IMG/VR virus record: IMGVR_UViG_3300037827_000551
Location: 1-64,000 of that record
DNA from: a virus
Reading direction: 5' to 3' (one strand)
Length of the DNA: 64,000 nucleotides
The translations under genes were made by a program, and so were the position numbers. The notes under the pieces were generated by a model. That model saw only the letters and a program-made list of their open reading frames with translations, made no database searches and had not been told where the DNA came from. Below, piece by piece: positions 2,478 to 3,263 of the stretch (position 1 is its first letter; each line of letters opens with the position of its first letter).

Positions 2478-2497
2478 AATAGAAAGGAGGTGATTTC

Positions 2498-3263
2498 GTG
2501 AAGTTTGGCAGTCTCTTTGCTGGAATCGGCGGCTTTTGATTTGGGACTAGAGAAAGCGGGGATGACCTGTGAGTGGCAAGTCGAAATCGACCCGTTCTGT
2601 CGACGAGTCCTCGAAAAGCATTGGCCCACTGTTCGGCGCCATGAGGACATCCGATCATTTCCCTCCGATGGAGACTGGGGAGTCGATCTCATCTGCGGAG
2701 GATTTCCATGCCAGGACATTAGCCTCGCGGGGAACATGGCGGGAATCCAGGCGGACCGATCCGGACTGTGGAGCGAATACTTCCGAATCGTTAGCGTTTT
2801 ACGACCGCGAGTCATTGTCGTGGAGAACGTATCAGCTCTCCTTTTTAACGGGATTGACCGAGTTTGCGGAGACCTGGCCACGATCGGCTATGACGCGGAA
2901 TGGGAAGTTATTTCGGCGTGCATGTTCGGTGCCCCACATTCACGGGAAAGACTGTTCGTTATTGCCTACCCTTACGAAGTCGGATGGGACGACAAGAGGA
3001 AATATTTTAACGGACGCCATGAATTACCGCCCCGATGCGACGCATGGAAAGCCTCGCCGAGTCAGAGCGGATGGAAGTTCGTTCAGCGCTGGATTATCCA
3101 GGCTATGGAAACTGGCCTCGGGTTTATCGCTCCCCGCGAACGCAGCGGAATGGCTGATGGGATACCCAGCCAACTGGACCGCATTGGAGCCCTCGGAAAC
3201 GCCGTCGTCCCCCAGATCGCCGAGTGGATCGGACGAATGATCCTGGAATCGGAGCAATCCTAA
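2498..3263 (+). CDS. DNA cytosine-C5 methyltransferase, frame change after codon 13
   Basis: Transfers a methyl group from S-adenosylmethionine to C5 of cytosine. GTG 2498 sits 7 bases after a strong AAAGGAGG. The first 13 codons read VKFGSLFAGIGGF (motif I), then UGA at 2537-2539; the rest of the protein lies in the +1 frame from GAT 2538 (DLGLEKAGM...). Further motifs: GGFPCQDIS (IV, catalytic Cys), ENV (VI), SRERLFVIA (VIII) and IGALGNAVVPQIAEWIG (IX/X). Joined, it is about 254 residues with all core motifs, rather short in the target-recognition region. TTT TGA T has the geometry of the prfB +1 frameshift, but a base insertion or sequencing error in the run of four Ts is equally possible. 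Using TTG 2505 alone would lose motif I. Confidence 0.85.
2536..2540 (+). other. Possible +1 frameshift site in methyltransferase
   Basis: The run TTTTGAT puts UGA directly after a Phe codon; shifting one base forward gives Phe-Asp and restores the conserved GGFDLGLE. This mirrors CUU UGA C of bacterial prfB. No clear AGGGGG-like stimulator is present a few bases upstream (only GGCGGC), so programmed use is unproven. Confidence 0.4.
2569..3240 (+). CDS. Overlapping-frame protein inside the C5 methyltransferase
   Basis: A 223-residue frame, GTG 2569, lying entirely inside the methyltransferase gene in another frame. It resembles a family often encoded beside or across phage C5 methyltransferases: SLSWRTYQLSFL, then FAETWPRSAMTRNGKLF, then SLLPTLTKSDG, and near the end EWLMGYPANWTALEP followed by SETPSSPRSP. 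The last block is read from the same bases that encode LGNAVVPQIAEW in the methyltransferase frame. No function is established. Whether it is translated here is uncertain: there is no good ribosome-binding site at 2569 and a later start is possible. Confidence 0.5.
   Translation: MSGKSKSTRSVDESSKSIGPLFGAMRTSDHFPPMETGESISSAEDFHARTLASRGTWRESRRTDPDCGANTSESLAFYDRESLSWRTYQLSFLTGLTEFAETWPRSAMTRNGKLFRRACSVPHIHGKDCSLLPTLTKSDGTTRGNILTDAMNYRPDATHGKPRRVRADGSSFSAGLSRLWKLASGLSLPANAAEWLMGYPANWTALEPSETPSSPRSPSGSDE

Follow-up and report, generated by a model that had tools for sequence, protein, structure and literature searches.

Organization of the methyltransferase locus

The stretch of viral DNA analysed here (the window, 64,000 nucleotides) comes from a virus record of 83.5 kb. 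At the DNA level, the window had no match among the phage genomes with which it was compared. The locus described below is a C5 cytosine methyltransferase gene, alpha, that contains a second ORF, beta, in the +1 phase relative to the methyltransferase frame 2505-3263 (Table 1). The main frame of alpha matches Pfam PF00145 (2.1e-37) and phrog_363 (3.7e-65). The match between alpha and M.HhaI ends after motif VIII, and matches to PDB entries end likewise. A preliminary description of this DNA had credited the main frame with the full set of C5 motifs. This is not the case: the frame holds motifs IV-VIII and X, motif IX is absent, and motif I is encoded in the third frame, which breaks at TTTTGA (2534-2539), with the rest of alpha in another frame. 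The frame change may be an assembly error, an inactivation or a recoding event; relatives with intact alphas exist. In one relative, L042, the alpha frame shifts at a run of 11 G within the gene (approximately 2970-2980), possibly through phase variation or a sequencing error. A common recoding site for alpha was considered and is unsupported, as L042 breaks at the 11 G and not at the site seen in the window.

Table 1. Features of the alpha and beta reading frames (positions in the window).
Feature	Position	Strand	Basis or remark
AGGAGG (Shine-Dalgarno-like) and GTG start (2498) of the alpha gene	2485..2500	+	sequence
Alpha motif I fragment VKFGSLFAGIGGF (FGSLFAGIGGF), stops at TGA 2537-2539	2498..2539	+	sequence
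Alpha, C5 cytosine methyltransferase main frame, motifs IV-VIII and X, without IX	2505..3263	+	profile matches
Beta, +1-frame ORF, 223 codons from GTG 2569; proposed motif IX subunit	2569..3240	+	
Alpha motif IV, GGFPCQDIS	2697..2723	+	
Beta conserved motif SWRTYQ (family SWKTxQ)	2818..2835	+	
Beta conserved motif WPRSAMTRNG (family WPRSGMMRNG)	2875..2904	+	
Alpha motif VIII region, GAPHSRER	2928..2951	+	
Beta conserved motif LLPTLTKSDG (family LLPTPTASD, often repeated)	2959..2988	+	
Beta motif IX-like segment LPANAAEWLMGYPANWTAL (family LNPxWVEWLMGFPxGWTDL)	3130..3186	+	
Alpha DGIPSQLDRIGALGNAVVPQ, including motif X	3156..3215	+	synonymous sites fixed by beta (GAT GGG .. CCC; CTG GAC)

The 223-residue ORF reads exactly as the preliminary description quoted it, and in synonymous shuffles it lies far beyond chance. 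An alternative start at ATG 2641 would give 199 codons. No clear ribosome-binding site is visible in the window upstream of either candidate start. The beta protein matches phrog_1008 (5.8e-21). The AlphaFold model of beta alone (alignment-based) is poor, with a pLDDT of 65, and it matched nothing in the PDB. A search of solved structures with the beta profile found nothing, and no known domain was matched by the N-terminal two thirds. The SETPSSPRSP tail of beta is, as had been proposed, dictated by the codons with which alpha encodes LGNAVVPQIAEW. It is not a defining motif, because in several relatives, L118 and L151 among them, beta stops before it, two to four residues after motif IX.

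Selection on the +1 frame

Constraint on beta was measured with a shuffle test in which codons are permuted among positions of the same amino acid within the gene, leaving the alpha protein and its codon usage intact. The +1 frame of the window scores 212 bits against a beta profile built without the window. Its 1000 synonymous shuffles average 106 bits and peak at 144 (z 8.9), so that none reaches the real score. The frame stays open for up to 224 codons, compared with a shuffled mean of 121 for the longest run, and 8 of the 1000 shuffles have a run as long.

The same test was applied to 80 viral loci fetched by the alpha frame alone. These loci are the ones most closely related to the window's alpha, and some share contigs with the set found through beta; all 80 beat every one of 40 shuffles on the beta profile score (median z 7.6). 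The median z is 10.7 when the beta profile is rebuilt from 123 sequences. In these loci, the longest open +1 run averages 225 codons, compared with 103 after shuffling, while the +2 frame of the same 80 loci, used as a control, gives 64 codons compared with 65 shuffled and thus carries no signal. The shuffles leave shared ancestry unmodelled, yet the beta proteins have 23-43% identity to the window protein and the loci range from 41 to 69% GC.

Individual codons of alpha are frozen as well. Codons were counted in the alpha-selected loci, leaving out those fetched with a pattern that contains a beta motif (half of all loci). The Asp of DGVP in alpha is GAT in 32/32 cases (background 0.46), and the Asp of VDR, a few codons further, is GAC in 43/45 (background 0.54); GAT followed by GAC within one gene is seen in 17 of 18. 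Other frozen codons are GGG (74/77, background 0.23), CCC (57/58, 0.38) and GTG (37/41, 0.28); near motif X, codon choice is fixed at the positions that matter for beta. The stretch RLDEWGGSSNPFR of the +1 frame is near-identical in two phages, one of Microcystis and one of Vibrio, whereas the main frame is less alike. Chance or dictated resemblance is ruled out by the synonymous shuffles, the codon freezing and the +2 control.

The ORF at 2569-3240 is real and selected, and both frames are under selection. The shuffle tests bear out the earlier proposal that a second protein is encoded under constraint beyond that of the methyltransferase frame. Stops in relatives and a lack of excess constraint, the outcomes that would speak against it, were both looked for, and the overlap withstood the search.

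Distribution and annotation of beta

A tblastn search with the +1 protein returned 186 phage records. In the regions inspected, the matches lie inside an annotated C5 methyltransferase, in the +1 phase wherever this was tested. An alignment of nine distant +1 proteins has AEDF.A.T, SWKTxQ, WPRSGxMRNG, LLPTPxASD and LNPxxxEWMMGFPxxWT in common. Bacterial and archaeal genomes, one per species, were scanned with the beta profile, which yielded 80 loci from Pseudomonas, Acinetobacter, Planctomycetota, Actinomycetota, an archaeon and others. In 80/80 of them, alpha overlaps in the identical +1 phase, and no free-standing beta was found among them. Proteins of this kind had been said to occur beside methyltransferases; in the loci examined they are instead encoded inside the gene, in the +1 phase, with no copy apart from alpha.

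Annotation of beta is sparse. In E. coli strain PT62, RefSeq annotates alpha alone, and in plasmid records just the methyltransferase is listed under the beta match. Among the betas tested, none has a match in Pfam or NCBIfam. The PHROG family phrog_1008 matches 96/96 beta proteins and is annotated "DNA methyltransferase". Literature searches found no published account of a phage alpha/beta overlap; the out-of-frame HNH insertions in phage methylases (PMC11855218) are a different phenomenon. The nested beta of many phage and bacterial C5 enzymes, usually unannotated in databases, is most likely a second subunit, and the two-subunit kind of C5 enzyme is apparently far more widespread than annotation shows.

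A further arrangement is found in Mycobacterium phage OfUltron and at least seven phages like it. Here the overlap contains a frame change of one base, so that alpha-N, beta-N/alpha-C and beta-C each occupy a different frame; the annotation lists two "DNA methylase" genes.

Division of motifs IX and X between the frames

The C-terminus of beta, L..P...EWLMGYPANWT, matches motif IX of C5 methyltransferases. A motif scan of both frames placed motif IX in beta only and motif X in alpha only at 207 loci, including the window. Beta supplies the motif that alpha lacks, which the preliminary description had overlooked, and looks like the subunit of an M.EcoHK31I-type enzyme. In true monomers, motifs IX and X are both in the main frame. 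The same scan found a classical motif IX in the main frame of four single-chain enzymes, and three actinophage pairs (Ryadel, Alma and Jinkies) have IX and X both in the second chain. In three single-chain relatives (L170, L171 and L216), a beta-type motif IX is in the main frame, and the beta profile matches it there with i-E values of 3e-10 to 1e-9.

By hhalign, the beta C-terminus aligns to motif IX of the monomers (E about 1e-3); profile-profile comparison of the N-terminal part of beta with the monomers found nothing. An origin of beta by overprinting, as first suggested, fits most of its length. It does not suit the motif IX end, which is homologous to the main-frame motif IX of monomers and is more aptly seen as ancestral sequence that has changed frame. 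In L170, L171 and L216, the +1 frame still encodes the N-terminal part of beta (WPRSGMMRNG, LLPTPTASD). These loci are possibly intermediates, or they may be a sign of a separate role for that part.

A second +1 ORF in single-chain enzymes

A control set of 80 loci was fetched with a profile of monomeric enzymes. In this set, the motif IX beta profile shows little (median z 1.6). In 33 of the control loci (L252, L253, L255 and L264-L339), which encode single-chain enzymes with GHLRGxSRRxVFPI after motif VIII, a different +1 ORF is conserved (SLSDILEEQVDEKYFLS). A profile was made from half of the 33 loci and tried on the held-out rest, where 17/17 loci outscored each of their 30 shuffles, with a median z of 6.1. 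Shuffling shortens the longest +1 run from 184 codons to 73, and synonymous sites are frozen. This ORF contains WGMMSNGKCLTARISESPKTEKECSLSDILEEQVDEKYFLS, which resembles a segment in the main frame of many monomeric enzymes. Given this resemblance, pieces of the small domain may repeatedly move to a second, separately translated chain. Motif IX alone leaves +1 coding unexplained, because L170, L171, L216 and one class of monomers keep +1 ORFs. It is conceivable, and put forward here tentatively, that same-strand +1 overprinting is general to phage and bacterial C5 methyltransferases and not a peculiarity of one two-subunit enzyme.

Proposed enzyme and alternative explanations

Judged from sequence, the locus probably (about 80%) encodes a two-subunit (alpha/beta) C5 cytosine methyltransferase, with both chains encoded by the same DNA in different frames. 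Alpha, in the main frame, would serve as the catalytic chain, having motifs I-VIII and X and lacking IX; it would bind AdoMet and hold the catalytic Cys. Beta, in the +1 frame and nested in alpha, would contribute the C-terminal motif IX together with a small conserved N-terminal part (SWKTxQ, WPRSGMMRNG, LLPTPTASD), and would complete the DNA-recognition domain. Only the complex of alpha and beta would methylate the site, as reported for M.EcoHK31I. We infer that beta is translated, that a heterodimer forms and that beta takes part in recognition. A role in target choice, one of two roles suggested earlier, is plausible because motif IX is part of the DNA-recognition domain; the other, in host interaction, is not supported. 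As for how both chains could be made, alpha and beta of the NELALFAG subclass start at neighbouring ATGs, both within ATGAATGAG and 4 nt apart; of the 80 loci that have this beta ATG, 61 show an SD-like sequence just upstream. The locus in the window falls in a different subclass.

Three other explanations were weighed. That +1 conservation is a by-product of the methyltransferase frame, through alpha conservation, base composition or codon bias, is highly improbable. Resemblance is in part dictated by alpha, since shuffled alphas still score approximately 65 bits with the first profile and the window shuffles average 106 bits. However, 80/80 loci exceed every shuffle and the +2 frame gives no signal, a single gene has synonymous sites frozen in opposite directions (GAT then GAC), and stops are avoided across the whole range of GC content.

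Beta could also be an independent overprinted protein with another job, such as anti-restriction or host interaction, unrelated to methylation. The N-terminal two thirds, which lack a known domain, and the relatives that keep the +1 N-terminal part though their motif IX is in the main frame would suit such a protein. The homology of the beta motif IX, the complementary absence of IX from alpha and the obligate co-occurrence of beta with alpha argue against it, and make it unlikely. Less likely again is that the +1 segment is reached from alpha by programmed frameshifting, giving an alpha-beta fusion and not a protein with its own start. Ryadel 8/7 and Alma 83/82, partly overlapping parts annotated as two genes, are consistent with such a fusion, but a large subclass has the dual start with its SD-like sequence, and motif X remains in the alpha frame.

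If the two-subunit reading is correct, many single "DNA cytosine methyltransferase" genes of phages, prophages and plasmids each specify two proteins; expressed with recoded codons, the annotated frame would yield an inactive half. This would be a concrete reason why the methylation specificity of such genes may defy prediction or reproduction. Among prokaryotic families of long overlapping genes on the same strand, this would be one of the clearer ones, with a dual constraint that can be measured per codon, and its members would be natural split methyltransferases for complementation work.

Comparison with known methyltransferases

Alpha matches the monomers M.HhaI and M.HaeIII from motif I to VIII. 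These enzymes keep motif IX in their single chain, whereas here it is encoded in another frame. The locus agrees with phrog_1008 by profile, and the annotation of that family is silent on an out-of-frame partner.

M.AquI consists of two polypeptides from one locus, with pieces of the small domain in the second chain (PMC3404938). The beta chain of M.AquI holds both IX and X, whereas X stays in alpha in the window. The M.AquI-like cases here are the Ryadel, Alma and Jinkies pairs. In these pairs (L006, L259 and L261, that is, Ryadel 8/7, Alma 83/82 and Jinkies), the first chain ends after motif VIII and the second is in the +1 frame.

M.EcoHK31I is a two-polypeptide C5 methyltransferase that recognizes YGGCCR. 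Lee, Kam and Shaw reportedly described in 1995 that the gene of its large chain also encodes the small chain, in the +1 frame, and that both chains are needed in vitro. The nesting of beta, in the +1 frame within the gene of the large chain, is like this reported arrangement. In a published summary, the large polypeptide has motifs I-VIII, X and a predicted TRD, and the smaller one has motif IX (PMC3404938). Alpha resembles the large chain in having I-VIII and X and lacking IX at the 207 loci, with motif I out of frame in the window, and beta resembles the small chain in having IX. A difference is that beta spans nearly all of alpha in many relatives, with starts 4 nt apart. The likeness described here is one of motif division and nesting. 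The enzyme kind itself is already known; what is new here is its breadth and its missing annotation. Because the division of motifs is identical, a two-subunit enzyme of the M.EcoHK31I kind is the best reading of the locus.
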